Position numbers and translations under genes: made by a program. The notes beneath the pieces were generated by a model. The model worked only from the letters and a program-made list of their open reading frames with translations. It was not told the origin of the DNA and made no database searches. DNA of 64,000 nt from Hymenobacter sp. APR13 (GTDB lineage Bacteria; Bacteroidota; Bacteroidia; Cytophagales; Hymenobacteraceae): the NCBI RefSeq assembly GCF_000737515.1, contig NZ_CP006587.1:4521001-4585000 (forward strand), written 5' to 3'. Shown here piece by piece: positions 19,355 to 28,326 of the stretch. Position 1 is the stretch's first letter. Each line of letters begins with the position of its first letter.

Positions 19355-20044
19355 ATGCTGATTGACGTCATTATTCCTGCTTTCAACGAAGAGCAGTCCA
19401 TTGCGCAGGTGCTGCGCGAGATTCCGGCCGGTCTTGTGCGGGAAGTCATTGTAGTCGACAACAACTCCTCCGACCGCACCGGCGAGGTGGCCCGCGCGGC
19501 TGGCGCCACGGTGCTGCGCGAAACCCGCCCCGGCTACGGCCACGCCTGCCTGGCCGGCATGGCCCACGCCTTCGCCCGCCCCCTGCCCGAGCAGGCCGAC
19601 ATCATCGTGTTTCTGGACGGCGACCATTCCGACTACCCCGAGGAAATGCCGCTGCTGGTGGCCCCCATCCTGCGTGGTGAGGCCGACATGGTCATCGGCT
19701 CGCGGGCGCTGGGCGAGCGGGAAGCCGGCTCCATGATGCCGCAGCAGATTTTCGGCAACTGGCTGGCCACTAACCTGCTCCGCCGCCTCTACGGGGCCCA
19801 CTTCACCGACCTGGGCCCGTTCCGGGCAATCCGGCGGGAGGCGCTGCAACGTATTGGCATGGCCGACACCACCTACGGCTGGACGGTGGAAATGCAGCTC
19901 AAAGCCGCCAAGCTGCGCCTGCGCAACACCGAAGTGCCGGTGCGCTACCGCCGCCGCATCGGCACCAGCAAAGTATCGGGCACGGTGCGCGGCACACTGG
20001 GCGCCGGCTACAAAATCCTCTGGACCATTTTCCGGTATCTGTAA
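19355..20044 (+). CDS. GT2 family glycosyltransferase, polyprenyl-phosphate mannose/glucose synthase-like
   Basis: A 229-residue GT-A enzyme without membrane helices. It starts MLIDVIIPAFNEEQSIAQVL, has IVVDNNSSD, the DxD-type metal site FLDGDHSDYPEEM, and MVIGSRALGEREAGSM, then TDLGPFRAIRREAL. The layout matches DPM/DPG-synthase-like proteins that charge a polyprenyl phosphate with a sugar. The two genes that follow (processive GT2 and GT-C) would be consistent with use of such a lipid-linked sugar. Confidence 0.88.
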   Translation: MLIDVIIPAFNEEQSIAQVLREIPAGLVREVIVVDNNSSDRTGEVARAAGATVLRETRPGYGHACLAGMAHAFARPLPEQADIIVFLDGDHSDYPEEMPLLVAPILRGEADMVIGSRALGEREAGSMMPQQIFGNWLATNLLRRLYGAHFTDLGPFRAIRREALQRIGMADTTYGWTVEMQLKAAKLRLRNTEVPVRYRRRIGTSKVSGTVRGTLGAGYKILWTIFRYL

Positions 20045-23155: not shown

Positions 23156-23785
23156 CTACTCGCCGGAGGTGTCGCGCCAAGCGGCCAGGTCGGCGGCATC
23201 GTCTACGTCGCGCAGCGTGGGCAGCTGCGCGACGGTCAGGCCCATACGGTCAGCGTCGGCCAAGGTGTGGGCCAGCACGGAGTCAGTACTCCAGCTTTTT
23301 CCCAGGAAAACATCTTCGTACAACTCTTTCATTCCCAACAGATAATACCCGCCATCCTCAGCCGGCCCTACAACCAGGTCATGCGTAGCCAGCGCAGCGT
23401 ATGCCTGCTCCAAAATAGCCGTGGACAAACCCGGGCAATCCGTCCCGACGATGAGGACGGCGCGGGCGCCCTGGTTGAAGGCGTGGGCAAATGCCGTCAG
23501 CATGCGCGCCCCCAGGTCGCCGGGAAACTGCAGCTGCTGCTCGTAGTCCGGCCAGGCGTCGGCGCTGGCGGGGGGGGTTGTTGGGGCTTCGGCCAGCCAC
23601 ACGGTTTTGTGGGCGGGCAGTGCCTGCGCCACGGCCCGGGTATGGGCCAGCAGCTCCCGGTACACGGCCAGCGCCGCTTCGTTGCCGATGCCGGCGGCCA
23701 GTCGGGTTTTCACCTTACCCAGTTCGGGGTGGCGGGCGAAAACGAGCAGGTGCTGGTGAGCAGGATTGGTACTGGTGGCAGACAT
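23156..23785 (-). CDS. TIGR04282/DUF2064 family glycosyltransferase of arsenosugar-type clusters
   Basis: A 209-residue nucleotidyl/glycosyltransferase-like protein. It has HLLVFARHPELGKVKTRLAA, IVGTDCPGLS, the DLVVGPAEDGGYYLLGM motif and LRDVDDAADL. These match DUF2064 (TIGR04282), which sits beside ArsS in many bacteria and is annotated as arsenosugar-biosynthesis associated. The frame is open to 23893, but that part is encoded by an inverted repeat; the ATG at 23785 is chosen. Together with the rhodanese, ArsS and AhpD-like genes upstream it forms a same-strand cluster. Confidence 0.88.
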   Translation of the reverse strand: MSATSTNPAHQHLLVFARHPELGKVKTRLAAGIGNEAALAVYRELLAHTRAVAQALPAHKTVWLAEAPTTPPASADAWPDYEQQLQFPGDLGARMLTAFAHAFNQGARAVLIVGTDCPGLSTAILEQAYAALATHDLVVGPAEDGGYYLLGMKELYEDVFLGKSWSTDSVLAHTLADADRMGLTVAQLPTLRDVDDAADLAAWRDTSGE

Positions 23786-23833
23786 AAGCGGAAGAGAATT
23801 CAAAAGCAATGATTGTGAAGCTGACGTGACGCC

Positions 23834-23933
23834 GCTGTGTAGCGCGAACTTTGTAGTTCGCGCCCCCGCGCCGCCCGGACGATTTCGTTTCAACGGCGCG
23901 GAGACGCGAACTACAAAGTTCGCGCTACACAGC
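23834..23933. repeat. Perfect 29-bp inverted repeat
   Basis: Arms 23834-23862 and 23905-23933 are exact complements. The core TAGCGCGAACTTTGTAGTTC itself contains a smaller palindrome (GAACTTTGTAGTTC). It lies within the cluster, 16 bp before the rhodanese stop codon and upstream of the DUF2064 start. Confidence 0.92.
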
Positions 23934-23949
23934 GTCAGGACCGACGAGC

Positions 23950-24516
23950 CTACTCATATACCTTACGGCCTTTTTTCAGCCACGGGCTCCACAGCACCGA
24001 GTATGGGTGCACCTCGTCGGTGCGGCCCTGGGCGTTGAACACCGGGTAGCCGTCGTTCACCCACTGAAAAATGCCGCCGTAGAGGTTGCGCACGTCGCGG
24101 AAGCCGAGGGCGCGCAGCCGCTCCCCTACCCGCTCGCTCCGGTAACCTACCGAGCAGTACACCACTACCGGCCGGTCGCGGGGCACGTCGCGGAACTCAG
24201 CCTTCTCGAAGGTGCCGAAGTCCACAAACCGGGCGCCCTGCAGGTGGCTGATGCGGTACTCTTCGGGTGTGCGGGTGTCCAGCAGCACCACGCCGCCGGG
24301 CTTGGCCTGCAGGGTGGCGGCCAGCTGCGCCGGCTGCATCAGCGGCACCGTGTTGCGGTACAGCGTTTTCAGCAATTGGTCGTAGGCGGTGTTGTTGCGC
24401 GCCGGCTCGCCCTGCCGCTCCCGCCCGCAGGCCCCCAGCGCCAGCAGCCACAGCCCCGACGACACCAAACTCGTGCGGCGCAGCCAGGCCAGCTTATGTA
24501 CAAGGCGATTCAGCAT
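23950..24516 (-). CDS. Rhodanese-domain lipoprotein
   Basis: A 188-residue protein with signal peptide and lipobox (LLALGAC) and one rhodanese domain: VVLLDTRTPEEYRISHLQGA, active-site loop YCSVGYRSE (Cys nucleophile), and LYGGIFQWVNDGYPV. It is predicted to be extracytoplasmic, which is unusual for a sulfurtransferase. It lies 42 bp downstream of arsS. Rhodanese-like proteins are found near TIGR04282 genes in related bacteria (recollection, not checked), so a role in the same pathway is possible. Confidence 0.87.
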   Translation of the reverse strand: MLNRLVHKLAWLRRTSLVSSGLWLLALGACGRERQGEPARNNTAYDQLLKTLYRNTVPLMQPAQLAATLQAKPGGVVLLDTRTPEEYRISHLQGARFVDFGTFEKAEFRDVPRDRPVVVYCSVGYRSERVGERLRALGFRDVRNLYGGIFQWVNDGYPVFNAQGRTDEVHPYSVLWSPWLKKGRKVYE

Positions 24517-24558
24517 ATTTAGTGGTGCGGTTTATGGCAGTTGCGCTGGCCGAAGTGG

Positions 24559-25608
24559 CTACGTGGTAGCGCCGCCGCAGCTGGAGCCCGCACCAGCCGT
24601 ACAGCCGAAGCAATGCTGGTTTACCACGATGGCCCGGGCGTTCAGCGCCGCTTCGTCGAAGTCGCGGATGTGTTGGGGGGCGGTGGCGGCCACGGGCAGC
24701 TCCAGCATCTGGTTGAAGTCGCAGTCGTAAAGCAGCCCGTCCCAGCTCACGCTGAGCGTGCTGCGGCACATCACGTTTTCGGCCGCCGTGGGGTTGTAGG
24801 CGGCCACCAGCTTCTCCATGTAGCTTTCGTAGTTGCCGCTTTCCAGCAGATACTCCAGAAAACGGCTCACGGGCAGGTTGGTGATGGCCAGCAGGTTGTT
24901 GAACACGATGCCATGCTCGCGCAGCAGCCGCTGCTTAAACTCGCGTTCCAGCGACGCCTGGTTGCCGGGCAGAAACGCCCCCGACGGGTTGAACACCAGA
25001 TCCAGCTGCAAACCCGAGCCTTCCACGCCGTAGCCTACCTGGTTCAGCATCTGCAAGGCCCGGATGGAACGCCCGAACACGCCTTCGCCACGCTGGGCAT
25101 CGGTGCGGGCCGCCGAGAAGTGCGGCAACGACGACACCACCTGCACCCGGTGCTTGGCAAAGAACTCCGGCAAATCGTGGTACTTTTTGTTGGCCACGAT
25201 GATGGTGAGGTTGCAGCGCACGATGGTCTGCCGGCCCAGGGCCGAAATCTGCTCCACCAGCCAGCGGAAGTCCGGGTTCATCTCCGGCGCTCCGCCCGTT
25301 AGGTCCACCACCTGGATGTCCGACTGCGCCAGCGCCGCTAGGCACTGCTGCATCGTTTCGCGGGTCATGATTTCGGTGCGGTCGGGCCCGGCGTCCACGT
25401 GGCAGTGCTTGCACACCTGGTTGCACATCTTACCCACGTTGATCTGCATCACGCGCAGGCTGGTCGGGCGCAGCGGCAGCAGGCCGGTTTCGCGCAGCTT
25501 GTGCGCAAAGGCCGGCAGGTGCGCCCCGGCGGCATCAGCCTGCGAAAGAACCGTCAGCTGGTAGCCAGTATCGGCCAATAGCGCGTGGCGCGCCTGGAGA
25601 GACTTCAT
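24559..25608 (-). CDS. arsS: Arsenosugar biosynthesis radical SAM protein ArsS
   Basis: A 349-residue protein with the radical SAM motif CNQVCKHC (Cys62, Cys66, Cys69) and DLTGGAPEMNPDFRWL. The C-terminal half has MCRSTLSVSWDGLLYDCDFN and the Cys-rich end HCFGCTAGAGSSCGG, both diagnostic of ArsS. In cyanobacteria ArsS transfers 5'-deoxyadenosyl to methylated arsenic. Some ArsS proteins carry selenocysteine in the Cys-rich part; here those positions are Cys. No arsenite methyltransferase (ArsM) gene is in the window. The conserved text begins within the first 50 residues, so the start at 25608 is reasonable. Confidence 0.92.
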   Translation of the reverse strand: MKSLQARHALLADTGYQLTVLSQADAAGAHLPAFAHKLRETGLLPLRPTSLRVMQINVGKMCNQVCKHCHVDAGPDRTEIMTRETMQQCLAALAQSDIQVVDLTGGAPEMNPDFRWLVEQISALGRQTIVRCNLTIIVANKKYHDLPEFFAKHRVQVVSSLPHFSAARTDAQRGEGVFGRSIRALQMLNQVGYGVEGSGLQLDLVFNPSGAFLPGNQASLEREFKQRLLREHGIVFNNLLAITNLPVSRFLEYLLESGNYESYMEKLVAAYNPTAAENVMCRSTLSVSWDGLLYDCDFNQMLELPVAATAPQHIRDFDEAALNARAIVVNQHCFGCTAGAGSSCGGATT

Positions 25609-25736
25609 AAATCGCTGATTTACGCTGATTGAATTGATTTCACTGATTACTGGTCACCAGAAACTGCTACTGAAAGGGCATAATATCTGACTGAAAAAAT
25701 CAGCGAAATCACCTCAATCAGCGCAAATCAGCGATT
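25609..25736. repeat. Word-built inverted repeat between arsS and the AhpD-like gene
   Basis: The left arm begins right after the arsS start codon (25609-25649) and holds three to four variants of CGCTGATTTA/CGCTGATTG. The right arm (about 25696-25736) has the complement (CAATCAGCG, AAATCAGCG) and reaches the stop codon of the AhpD-like gene. Each arm is thus itself a degenerate short tandem repeat. Confidence 0.7.
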
Positions 25737-26074
25737 CACATGGACAGCTCTTTGGCCTTGTTCATCATCTGCACGCCGTGCACCAGGGCGGCTCCGCCCT
25801 TGATGGCGGCGGCCACGTGCACTGCTTCCATCATCTGGGCTTCGTCGGCGCCTTTCTGCAGCGAGTCCGACGTGTAGGCGTCGATGCAGTACGGGCATTG
25901 CACGGCGTGGGCTACGGCCAGCGCAATCAGCGACTTTTCCCGCTCCGACAGGGCGCCGTCCTTGAACACCTCGGCATAGTAGGCAAAAAACTTGTTGCCC
26001 ATCTCGGGCTGCCACTCGGTGATGTTGCCAAATTTGGCCAGGTCGGCTGGGTTGTAATAGGTTGACTTTTCCAT
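25736..26074 (-). CDS. AhpD-like carboxymuconolactone decarboxylase family protein, arsenosugar-associated
   Basis: A 112-residue protein starting MEKSTYYNPADLAKFGNITE. It has the AhpD redox motif CPYC (Cys60, Cys63) and the helix QKGADEAQMMEAVHVAAAIK. Its length and sequence fit the 'arsenosugar biosynthesis-associated peroxidase-like' family that accompanies ArsS. It could reduce an arsenic or peroxide intermediate with the CxxC pair. It is 127 bp upstream of arsS (the gap filled by a word-repeat) and 56 bp downstream of the H-NOX gene. Confidence 0.9.
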   Translation of the reverse strand: MEKSTYYNPADLAKFGNITEWQPEMGNKFFAYYAEVFKDGALSEREKSLIALAVAHAVQCPYCIDAYTSDSLQKGADEAQMMEAVHVAAAIKGGAALVHGVQMMNKAKELSM

Positions 26075-26130
26075 GGAAAGAAGAAGAAACAGAGGGTGGT
26101 AGAAAGTGAATAGATGCGAGCAGGCCGTTG

Positions 26131-26679
26131 TCAGGCCGTTACTACGCGGCGGACCCGAATGCGAACCTGCTCGCCGTCCTCGCTGGTTTCGGGCTCCACC
26201 ACGATGCGGTCGGCCTCGTCGTAGTAGGCGGCAATGCCGCGCACGATGCCCACGGCCAGCGCCCCCATCCGGCGTTTCGACACGTAGTTGATTTCCAGCT
26301 CGTCGGGCGAGAGGCGCGTGACCTGCAGCACGGGCGGGGCATTTTCGGCGTGTTCCTGCCGGACCTGCCGGTGCATGGTATTTTCGGTGTGCTCCAGCAT
26401 ATCCAGCGTGGTCCACTGGGGTTGCAGCAGCTTCTGGTACATGTACATCAGATCAGGCACCAGATACTCCCCGAATTTCTCGTGCAGCTCCTGCGCCGAG
26501 AGGCCGGTCATTTCGGCGGCTTGCCCGACCAATGCATACATATGCTCGTCGGGGTACACGTTCTTATGATCGAAATTGGTAGCGCTCAGGCCTGCCGCTT
26601 CCATCAGCCGCACCCACGTGCTGTGGTCGTACTGCGTTTGTACGTAGCGCTTCAGAAGCGTGAAAATGGTACCGTGCAC
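26131..26679 (-). CDS. Stand-alone H-NOX haem nitric-oxide sensor
   Basis: From a GTG at 26679 the protein reads MHGTIFTLLKRYVQ, the usual H-NOX start, and is 182 residues long, the usual size. The proximal haem ligand aligns with His103 (TMHRQV), and the haem-propionate motif Y-x-S-x-R is YVSKR (Tyr132, Ser134, Arg136). These are one residue off the numbers of the Thermoanaerobacter protein (102, 131, 133, 135). The distal Tyr of oxygen-binding H-NOX (Tyr140 there) is Leu141 here, so it should bind NO but not O2 stably. No histidine kinase or cyclase partner is nearby. The longer frame to 26727 adds no conserved residues. Confidence 0.88.
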   Translation of the reverse strand: MHGTIFTLLKRYVQTQYDHSTWVRLMEAAGLSATNFDHKNVYPDEHMYALVGQAAEMTGLSAQELHEKFGEYLVPDLMYMYQKLLQPQWTTLDMLEHTENTMHRQVRQEHAENAPPVLQVTRLSPDELEINYVSKRRMGALAVGIVRGIAAYYDEADRIVVEPETSEDGEQVRIRVRRVVTA

Positions 26680-26749
26680 TGCTGTAAAGTCTGGTGAAAA
26701 AAGATTTTCCAGTCTAAATAACACCAATCTGGCCAGAAACTATCTGGCA

Positions 26750-26784
26750 AAAAGAAGGCGTGAAGAAGTTTTCTTCCTCACGCC
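26750..26784 (-). terminator. Intrinsic terminator of the anti-sigma gene
   Basis: GGCGTGAAGAAG (26758-26769) pairs with 26773-26784 with one mismatch, followed on the minus strand by TTCTTTTT. It is 22 bp past the stop codon at 26807 and separates the sigma/anti-sigma pair from the H-NOX gene. Confidence 0.82.
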
Positions 26785-26806
26785 CTCTTATATCGTGCTG
26801 CGCAGC

Positions 26807-27754
26807 TTAGAGCATTTTGCCCAGCACCGTCATCGTAGAAAGGGTAGGCGAAACGCTACCACCAGCGTCTTCCACCGTCATGGCGAAGGCCTGGGCGCTG
26901 GCAATGTCCTTCATCTGCTGCAGGCTGTCGCCGGCGGCGGTGGTGGCAGCCAGCACACCGGCATCCACGGGCTTGCCGTTGTCGAGGGCCCAGAGCTGGT
27001 ACTGCTTGCCAGCGGGCGGCGTGGGCAGGCTGCGCACATTCACGTACACGGCTTTAGTCGTGGGGTTGTAGAGCACCCGCGCTTTAGCGGAAGGCGCGGC
27101 CGGGGTGCCGGCCAGAATCACGCTCTGGTACTGCTCGTCGCGGAGCACGGCCAGCTCACGGTCCTGGGTGAGCAGGCGCTTTTCAGAGGCCTGCTGGGTG
27201 GCCGCGAAACGGGCCTGGTCGTTCTGGGCCGCAAACAGAGCCGTTTCCGTATTCTGCCAGCGGTTATAGAGCACGTAGTTGCCGGCCAAACTCAGGAGCA
27301 GGGCCACCGAGGCGGCCATCAGCCAGCCAAAGCCAGCGCGCGGCGCCGCCTCATACACCGGCTCGGGCGCACTCCCAATGGGCCGTACGACGGGCTCGTC
27401 CTTTCTTACAGGATCGGGCACGATGGGAGCCGTAGGCACACCCAGCGGAGCAGCCTCAGAAGTGGGAGCCGCAGCTACGGTGGGTGCGAAAGGCACCACT
27501 GGAGTTTCGTCGACAGAAGTGCTACGGATAGCTTGTTGCCAGCCTGCCAGCACCCGCTCCCGCATGGCGGGTGGCGGCGTAATGGCGTGGGCTTGCGCAT
27601 ACGCATCCAGGCCGCCAATAACGGCCTGCAACTCGTGTTGCACTGTCGGATGGGTGGCAGCCATCTGCTCTACCTGGGCCGCCTCGGCGGCAGAGAGTAC
27701 GCCTAGCGCGTATTCTTCCAGAATGCCTGATTCGATATATTGCTGAATGTCCAC
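26807..27754 (-). CDS. RskA-family anti-sigma factor
   Basis: A 315-residue protein. The N-terminal zinc-less anti-sigma domain reads IESGILEEYALGVLSAAEAA. A single membrane helix lies near residues 145-165 (WLMAASVALLLSLAGNYVL). A coiled coil and an extracytoplasmic RskA domain follow (VYVNVRSLPTPPAGKQYQLW, MTVEDAGGS). It would hold the sigma factor encoded just upstream until a periplasmic signal cleaves it. The gap to the sigma gene is 2 bp, so the two are translationally linked. Confidence 0.92.
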   Translation of the reverse strand: MDIQQYIESGILEEYALGVLSAAEAAQVEQMAATHPTVQHELQAVIGGLDAYAQAHAITPPPAMRERVLAGWQQAIRSTSVDETPVVPFAPTVAAAPTSEAAPLGVPTAPIVPDPVRKDEPVVRPIGSAPEPVYEAAPRAGFGWLMAASVALLLSLAGNYVLYNRWQNTETALFAAQNDQARFAATQQASEKRLLTQDRELAVLRDEQYQSVILAGTPAAPSAKARVLYNPTTKAVYVNVRSLPTPPAGKQYQLWALDNGKPVDAGVLAATTAAGDSLQQMKDIASAQAFAMTVEDAGGSVSPTLSTMTVLGKML

Positions 27755-27756
27755 GG

Positions 27757-28326
27757 CTATCGGATCAGTTTAGAGAGTACCTTGATAGCAGCGCGGGCGC
27801 GGGTTTTCACCGTGCCTAGCGGCAGATTCAGCTCGTCGGCTACTTCACTCTGGGTGTAGCCTCCGAAGTACAGCATATCAACGACCTGCTGTTGGTCAGG
27901 GGAGAGTTTTTTGGTCATTTCCTGCAAACCGATGTGCTCGGGCCGGAACGTGGGCGAAGCGGGCTCACGTACTGCGGCGCTGTCTTCAAGCGGCTGGGTA
28001 CGAGTACCTACGCGGTACTGTCGGGAGCGGATTTTGTCGATGGCTAAATTCCGGCTCACGTTCATTACCCACGTAAACAGCCGGCCTTTGCTAGCATCGT
28101 AGGAGGAAAAAGAGTTCCAGATCTTGACCATGCTTTCCTGTAGCACGTCTTCGGCTTCTTCTTCCTTTTTAACGACGCGCATAATAACGCCGTAGAGGGC
28201 AGCCGAGTATCGGTCGTAGAATAGCGTCATGGCCGCCTCGTCCCGGTCGCGCAGACGCTGCACCAGCAGGTCTTCGCCATCGGCTATCGGGGGCATGGCT
28301 TCGGGGGGAATGACATTCACGGGCAA
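27757..28326 (-). CDS. ECF sigma factor, SigK-like
   Basis: A 189-residue RNA polymerase sigma-70 factor. Region 2 is seen as FYDRYSAALYGVIMRVVKKE and DVLQESMVKIWNSF, with TWVMNVSRNLAIDKIRSR, and region 4 as LSPDQQQVVDMLYFGGYTQS and LPLGTVKTRARAAI. The last is the helix-turn-helix that reads the -35 element. Its cognate anti-sigma follows with 2 bp between. The likely regulon includes this operon; nothing in the window marks other targets. Confidence 0.94.
   Translation of the reverse strand: MPVNVIPPEAMPPIADGEDLLVQRLRDRDEAAMTLFYDRYSAALYGVIMRVVKKEEEAEDVLQESMVKIWNSFSSYDASKGRLFTWVMNVSRNLAIDKIRSRQYRVGTRTQPLEDSAAVREPASPTFRPEHIGLQEMTKKLSPDQQQVVDMLYFGGYTQSEVADELNLPLGTVKTRARAAIKVLSKLIR

Follow-up and report, generated by a model that had tools for sequence, protein, structure and literature searches.

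The 64,000-nt stretch of Hymenobacter sp. APR13 DNA analysed here (NZ_CP006587.1, positions 4,521,001-4,585,000; the whole stretch is called the window, and coordinates are window positions) encodes an H-NOX (Haem-NO-binding) protein directly upstream of genes named after arsenosugar biosynthesis. We consider it probable that this H-NOX is an orphan sensor of the nitric oxide (NO) type, which works with a partner in trans and holds an old syntenic position beside a separate organoarsenic module. The H-NOX gene would sit at a long-fixed place just downstream of an extracytoplasmic function (ECF) sigma/anti-sigma pair, and its product would signal in trans, most likely via a histidine kinase encoded elsewhere in the genome. 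The AhpD-like, ArsS, rhodanese and TIGR04282 genes would form a functional unit of their own, presumably serving organoarsenic chemistry, which follows H-NOX in this lineage and may share its transcript.

Five genes on the minus strand make up the cluster. The first encodes the stand-alone H-NOX protein (26131..26679; 182 aa, GTG start; PF07700, 115.8 bits, cut-off 25.5). It is followed by a gene for an AhpD-like, arsenosugar biosynthesis-associated peroxidase-like protein with a CPYC motif (25736..26074; TIGR04169, 195.3 bits, cut-off 120), whose PDB relatives are AhpD/CMD proteins, and by ArsS, a radical SAM protein with the cysteine motif CNQVCKHC (CxxxCxxC) and a DUF3641 domain (24559..25608; TIGR04167, 448.9 bits, cut-off 300; PF12345). 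A rhodanese-domain protein, with an N-terminus that by eye is lipoprotein-like (23950..24516; NF045521, 173.3 bits, cut-off 145; PF00581), and a TIGR04282 arsenosugar-type glycosyltransferase/DUF2064 protein (23156..23785; TIGR04282, 205 bits, cut-off 134; PF09837) complete the series. The successive intergenic gaps are 56, 127, 42 and 164 bp. All five genes exceed curated Pfam or NCBIfam cut-offs, H-NOX by Pfam alone, and ArsS is accompanied by both the peroxidase-like (TIGR04169) and the TIGR04282 gene, as in an arsenosugar cluster. On the opposite strand, a glycosyltransferase family 2 (GT2) gene at 19355-20044 scored 44.3 bits against a cut-off of 182 for TIGR04283, in a search of the window proteins only.

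The closest PDB relatives of the H-NOX protein are the H-NOX proteins 6ocv and 4iah. Alignment to solved H-NOX chains identified His103, the motif Y132-x-S134-x-R136 and Leu141. We take His103 to be the proximal histidine, YxSxR to be the haem-propionate motif and Leu141 to occupy the position of the distal tyrosine of the oxygen-binding H-NOX type. In a sample of 120 Hymenobacter genomes, H103, Y132, S134, R136 and L141 were identical in 97/97 H-NOX proteins encoded at this locus, and they were equally invariant where ArsS is present (35/35), where H-NOX is alone (25/25) and in other contexts (37/37). As these residues are just as invariant without ArsS as with it, the job of H-NOX seems to be independent of the arsenic module. 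Two findings back the GTG start at 26679: M1, H2 and G3 are invariant in an alignment of ten H-NOX proteins, and loci L061 and L064 have ATG in its place. In four genus genomes (G061, G023, G072 and G073), H-NOX matches were split in two or contained in-frame stops, possibly representing decaying copies; the match in G061 sits away from the usual locus. NO from a copper nitrite reductase was considered as a reason for the presence of H-NOX and rejected, NirK being found in 5/120 genomes and not in APR13.

No HATPase_c match was found within the window; the nearest lies at contig position 4589489, about 42 kb from H-NOX. The whole genome contains 54 HATPase_c matches, not all of which are kinases, and no GGDEF match. 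Since the genome gave no GGDEF match and its 54 HATPase_c matches all lie outside the window, a kinase in trans would be the likeliest partner. A domain scan of the H-NOX protein gave PF07700 only and no DNA-binding or enzymatic domain. A PAS histidine kinase is encoded close upstream of an H-NOX relative in L254 and L255, both from Bacteroidota metagenome-assembled genomes (2/7 loci with neighbours scanned). In a further Bacteroidota metagenome-assembled genome (L260:4588-5949), an H-NOX relative follows about 30 bp after a SpoIIE-type phosphatase gene.

A preliminary description of this DNA had named the five genes on one strand with a 56-bp gap between H-NOX and AhpD, the H-NOX residues His103, YxSxR and Leu141, and the lack of an adjoining histidine kinase or cyclase. 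The profile scores and coordinates, the alignment and the domain counts agree with it in these respects. It had also expected the protein to be an NO-selective sensor; the NO type holds by the absent distal tyrosine (Leu141 in 97/97 proteins), while NO binding itself is predicted from the residues. Taken together, the protein appears to be an orphan, stand-alone sensor of the NO type.

Conservation of the neighbourhood was followed in the genus sample, using gene maps in which genes were called by a simple script. H-NOX was matched in 101/120 genomes (19 were without it) and ArsS exceeded its cut-off in 107/120. In 35 of the 101 H-NOX-bearing genomes, ArsS is located 0.6-1.6 kb downstream of H-NOX on the same strand; therefore, the adjacency is not due to chance. 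Most mapped genomes share a syntenic order of aldehyde dehydrogenase (ALDH), sigma, anti-sigma and H-NOX genes, a variable middle part, and often three glycosyltransferase genes and a peroxiredoxin gene. Loci vary in which of the middle genes remain. In APR13, an ECF sigma factor (27757..28326; TIGR02937, PF04542) and an RskA-type anti-sigma factor (26807..27754; PF10099) are encoded upstream on the minus strand, giving the transcription order ECF sigma, anti-sigma, H-NOX, AhpD-like, ArsS, rhodanese, DUF2064/TIGR04282. The anti-sigma gene directly precedes H-NOX on the same strand in 97/97 genus loci. The H-NOX/ArsS neighbourhood, for which the preliminary description had named missing conservation as a refutation, is indeed conserved, but as part of a whole syntenic stretch that includes ALDH, the sigma/anti-sigma pair and the three glycosyltransferase genes.

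Further comparisons were made with a family sample of 60 genomes, from which 20 H-NOX regions and one from G250 were taken (further family H-NOX matches were left out), and an order sample of 157 genomes. The clustering of genes failed to recognise H-NOX in L172 (family) and in L159 and L160 (order). In one sister genus (code g85), AhpD follows H-NOX in 7/7 loci and ArsS is present in 2/7 (L162 and L179). In the other genera, AhpD followed H-NOX in 0/13 regions where the clustering recognised H-NOX. In the order sample, eight genomes outside the genus contain H-NOX and ArsS, and none shows the two side by side: two pairs share a contig at a distance of more than 1.4 Mb, and the other six are split between contigs, so that no distance can be given. 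In G275, a family genome outside the genus, six H-NOX matches are spread over five contigs.

Co-retention of the genes was analyzed at 117 loci, one for each of 117/120 genus genomes (G094, G097 and G108 were left out). Presence was defined by tblastn matches (E 1e-6, 35% of query), H-NOX genes with an in-frame stop (G023, G072 and G073) were scored as present, and the p-values ignore kinship among genomes. H-NOX was present at 97 loci and ArsS at 41. On this basis, H-NOX showed no retention association with the module genes. AhpD was present/absent in 53/44 loci with H-NOX and in 11/9 without it (odds ratio 0.99, p = 1), and ArsS in 35/62 and 6/14, respectively (odds ratio 1.32, p = 0.80). 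The values for rhodanese (p = 0.80) and DUF2064 (p = 0.62) were similar, and when two loci with less than 2.5 kb downstream were excluded, the p-values for H-NOX and each of the four module genes ranged from 0.46 to 1. H-NOX occurs with none of these four genes in 25 loci, two of which have short downstream sequence (504 bp in G106, 1926 bp in G018), and the ArsS block occurs without H-NOX in six. ArsS is missing from 62 of the H-NOX loci. In 53 of these cases the genome carries an ArsS gene at another place, outside a distance of 6 kb from H-NOX; for G014, one of the 53, this is a split match that stays under the cut-off.

Most pairs of module genes, in contrast, were retained together. ArsS was present/absent in 41/23 loci with AhpD and in 0/53 without it (p = 2e-15), so that every ArsS at the locus is accompanied by AhpD (41/41). 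DUF2064 was present/absent in 41/0 loci with ArsS and in 31/45 without it (p = 4e-12). Associations were also found between rhodanese and DUF2064 (p = 3e-9), AhpD and rhodanese (p = 1e-6) and AhpD and DUF2064 (p = 1e-5). By family names and raw co-occurrence, AhpD, ArsS, rhodanese and TIGR04282 are a module of their own. The functional link between NO sensing and arsenic chemistry that the preliminary description had proposed as an inference was unsupported by co-retention (ArsS in 35/97 loci with H-NOX versus 6/20 without; AhpD in 53/97 versus 11/20), and the following tree-based test is too weak to settle it.

For this test, supported independent contrasts were taken from a 112-row tree of ALDH, a gene of the same neighbourhood, on which H-NOX changes at least 15 times. 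Across 11 supported H-NOX contrasts, ArsS changed in the same direction in 2.1, in the opposite direction in 0.4 and not at all in 8.5 (p 0.625). The corresponding values were 0.2, 1.7 and 9.1 for AhpD, 0.5, 0.4 and 10.0 for rhodanese, and 2.2, 0.8 and 8.0 for DUF2064. Rhodanese and DUF2064 changed together in 4.2 of 6 contrasts (p 0.125). No gene pair was significant, module pairs included. Thus, the tree shows that ArsS and AhpD usually stayed as they were when H-NOX was gained or lost, and a tie within the module tighter than that to H-NOX is not provable from it.

Upstream of H-NOX, the gap to the anti-sigma gene contains a terminator-like hairpin (26731..26806, minus strand; -39 kcal/mol, z -7.2 versus shuffles). 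A scripted search for hairpins with a U-run detected such structures in 42/60 homologous anti-sigma/H-NOX gaps, 8/38 H-NOX/AhpD gaps and 6/17 AhpD/ArsS gaps. This upstream hairpin makes it probable that a separate transcription unit begins with H-NOX. The 56-bp H-NOX/AhpD gap has almost no fold (-0.5 kcal/mol) and no hairpin; as a hairpin precedes H-NOX and none follows in this gap, a transcript shared by H-NOX and AhpD is plausible. The 127-bp AhpD/ArsS gap (25609..25735, minus strand) consists of a single long inverted repeat (-64.4 kcal/mol, z -9.7), the 20-base arm of which occurs in the window only at 25611 and 25716. This repeat is possibly a small mobile or repetitive extragenic palindromic (REP)-like element, and it may break the transcript in APR13. 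A second inverted repeat (23843-23924) lies in the rhodanese/DUF2064 gap; its 19-base arm occurs there as two exact copies, one on each strand. A search for promoters of the E. coli type gave one versus 1.5 expected, and a strict Bacteroidota-type promoter motif was found in 0/60 and 0/39 gaps, so that promoters could not be placed. A consensus terminator scan found three terminators versus 5.1 expected and did not list the 26731..26806 hairpin shown by folding.

Arsenic genes were also located outside the H-NOX locus. Twenty ArsS regions were taken away from H-NOX, four of which are the same locus minus H-NOX (L135-L138) and 16 other clusters. An AhpD-like or GT2 gene is near ArsS in 14 of these 16, AhpD directly precedes ArsS in eight, and no H-NOX is among their mapped genes. 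One recurrent cluster type (L121, L122, L125, L126 and L134) comprises genes for an Omp85-like protein, GT2, an HpnA-like epimerase, a short-chain dehydrogenase/reductase, AhpD and ArsS, with an aquaporin in L121 and L126. Another (L130, L131 and L132) contains an SBP_bac_5-type binding protein, then ArsS and a gene grouped by clustering with the ArsM of L128, and also GT2 and DUF2064; the respective genomes (G056, G002 and G017) gave no NF038099 match at E 1e-60. At this threshold, a dedicated ArsM (NF038099) was detected in 34/120 genus genomes, including only two (G030 and G109) of the 41 genomes that carry ArsS at the H-NOX locus; no match was obtained in the APR13 genome. In G010, G083 and G051, ArsM lies about 5 kb from ArsS. 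About 3.4 Mb from the cluster, the APR13 genome encodes a relative of arsenite methyltransferases (361.9 bits to 5evj), which is below the NF008823 cut-off (188.2 versus 263). The view that the genome lacks a methylation step was rejected, as this relative of solved arsenite methyltransferases is present. Because it is encoded in the genome, organoarsenic chemistry in APR13 is possible.

Several observations weigh against an orphan sensor beside a separate module. Adjacency and strand of H-NOX and AhpD are kept in 53/53 loci with both genes, and the gap between them is short; it is hairpin-free here, and 8/38 of its homologues contain a hairpin. An inversion in three sister-genus loci (L168, L169 and L173) has cut H-NOX off from the sigma pair, with AhpD still next to it. 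The inverted part is the ALDH/sigma/anti-sigma side, with the breakpoint just upstream of H-NOX. Within the module, ArsS and rhodanese are associated only with p = 0.024; in six AhpD contrasts on the tree, ArsS changed in the same direction in 3.1 and in the opposite direction in 0.0 (p 0.25), and DUF2064 in 0.8 and 1.4. H-NOX itself leans towards joint change with ArsS (2.1 versus 0.4) and DUF2064 (2.2 versus 0.8), neither significantly. The raw p-values thus overstate how far H-NOX stands apart from the module, since they ignore kinship and the module pairs are not significant on the tree. Finally, 5/7 scanned H-NOX loci outside Hymenobacter gave no kinase among the one or two neighbours scanned at each (ten proteins in total).

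Alternatively, the five genes could be a single functional operon in which NO sensed by H-NOX controls the AhpD/ArsS module and organoarsenic synthesis answers NO. The common strand, the hairpin-free 56-bp gap and the upstream hairpin that makes H-NOX the likely first gene are consistent with this, as are the adjacency in 35/101 genomes and in L162 and L179 of the sister genus, the weak, non-significant lean to joint H-NOX/ArsS change and the methyltransferase relative encoded elsewhere. We nevertheless regard such an operon as unlikely, given the absent retention association, the 62 H-NOX loci without ArsS (53 in genomes with ArsS elsewhere), the eight order genomes with both genes and never together (six on different contigs), and an H-NOX protein with PF07700 as the sole domain found and no DNA-binding or enzymatic one. 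A transcription unit of H-NOX and AhpD/ArsS that responds to NO in a subset of Hymenobacter, where NO tunes organoarsenic synthesis without a kinase or cyclase, is decidedly unlikely; the absent retention association would then mean that the link works only in lineages with both. A link between NO and arsenic, if real, would add a new output to those of H-NOX sensing.

The neighbours on either side of H-NOX were considered as partners as well. H-NOX and AhpD might be a two-gene redox pair of a haem sensor and a CxxC thiol protein, with ArsS as a frequent but dispensable follower. AhpD is directly after H-NOX in 53/97 loci and in 7/7 g85 loci, three of them after the inversion. However, its retention is equal without H-NOX (11/20), ArsS at the locus always comes with AhpD, AhpD changed mostly in the opposite direction in the 11 H-NOX contrasts (1.7 versus 0.2), and it directly precedes ArsS in 8/16 other ArsS clusters, where H-NOX is missing. 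Such a pair is very improbable. It is more doubtful still that the ECF sigma/anti-sigma pair is the working partner of H-NOX, although the anti-sigma gene, directly upstream on the same strand in 97/97 genus loci, is its most constant neighbour: the terminator-like hairpin separates the two in 42/60 gaps, 20/20 loci that lack H-NOX likewise have both the sigma and the anti-sigma gene, and the inversion in L168, L169 and L173 split the pair from H-NOX.

An orphan H-NOX with a partner in trans, at an old position beside a separate organoarsenic module, would have a wider meaning. A conserved neighbourhood can mislead: the H-NOX/ArsS pair recurs in more than 30 genomes, yet presence and absence at the locus do not suggest that the arsenic genes are the reason for keeping the sensor. 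Moreover, this reading would make Hymenobacter a lineage in which an orphan H-NOX is highly conserved.

In the open-licence literature, no paper was found that joins H-NOX with arsenosugar, arsenosugar with Hymenobacter, or H-NOX with Hymenobacter; publication elsewhere is possible. Bacterial H-NOX genes usually adjoin kinase or cyclase genes, as stated in the text of PMC8738867, and no radical SAM, AhpD or rhodanese is among the neighbour families given in its section 10 and the figure legend there. Compared with these H-NOX/kinase or H-NOX/cyclase operons, APR13 differs in that no kinase or GGDEF gene adjoins H-NOX and the genome gave no GGDEF match. It resembles the stand-alone H-NOX proteins with an adjacent kinase or diguanylate cyclase, as described in PMC8738867 and PMC6759604, in PF07700, the proximal histidine, YxSxR and the absence of a distal tyrosine. 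With respect to the arsenosugar-type cluster around ArsS/TIGR04167, as defined by NCBIfam names, APR13 differs in that a dedicated ArsM (NF038099) was not found in the genome and the methyltransferase relative is about 3.4 Mb away, but it matches this cluster in ArsS, TIGR04169, NF045521 and TIGR04282, all of which score over their cut-offs.

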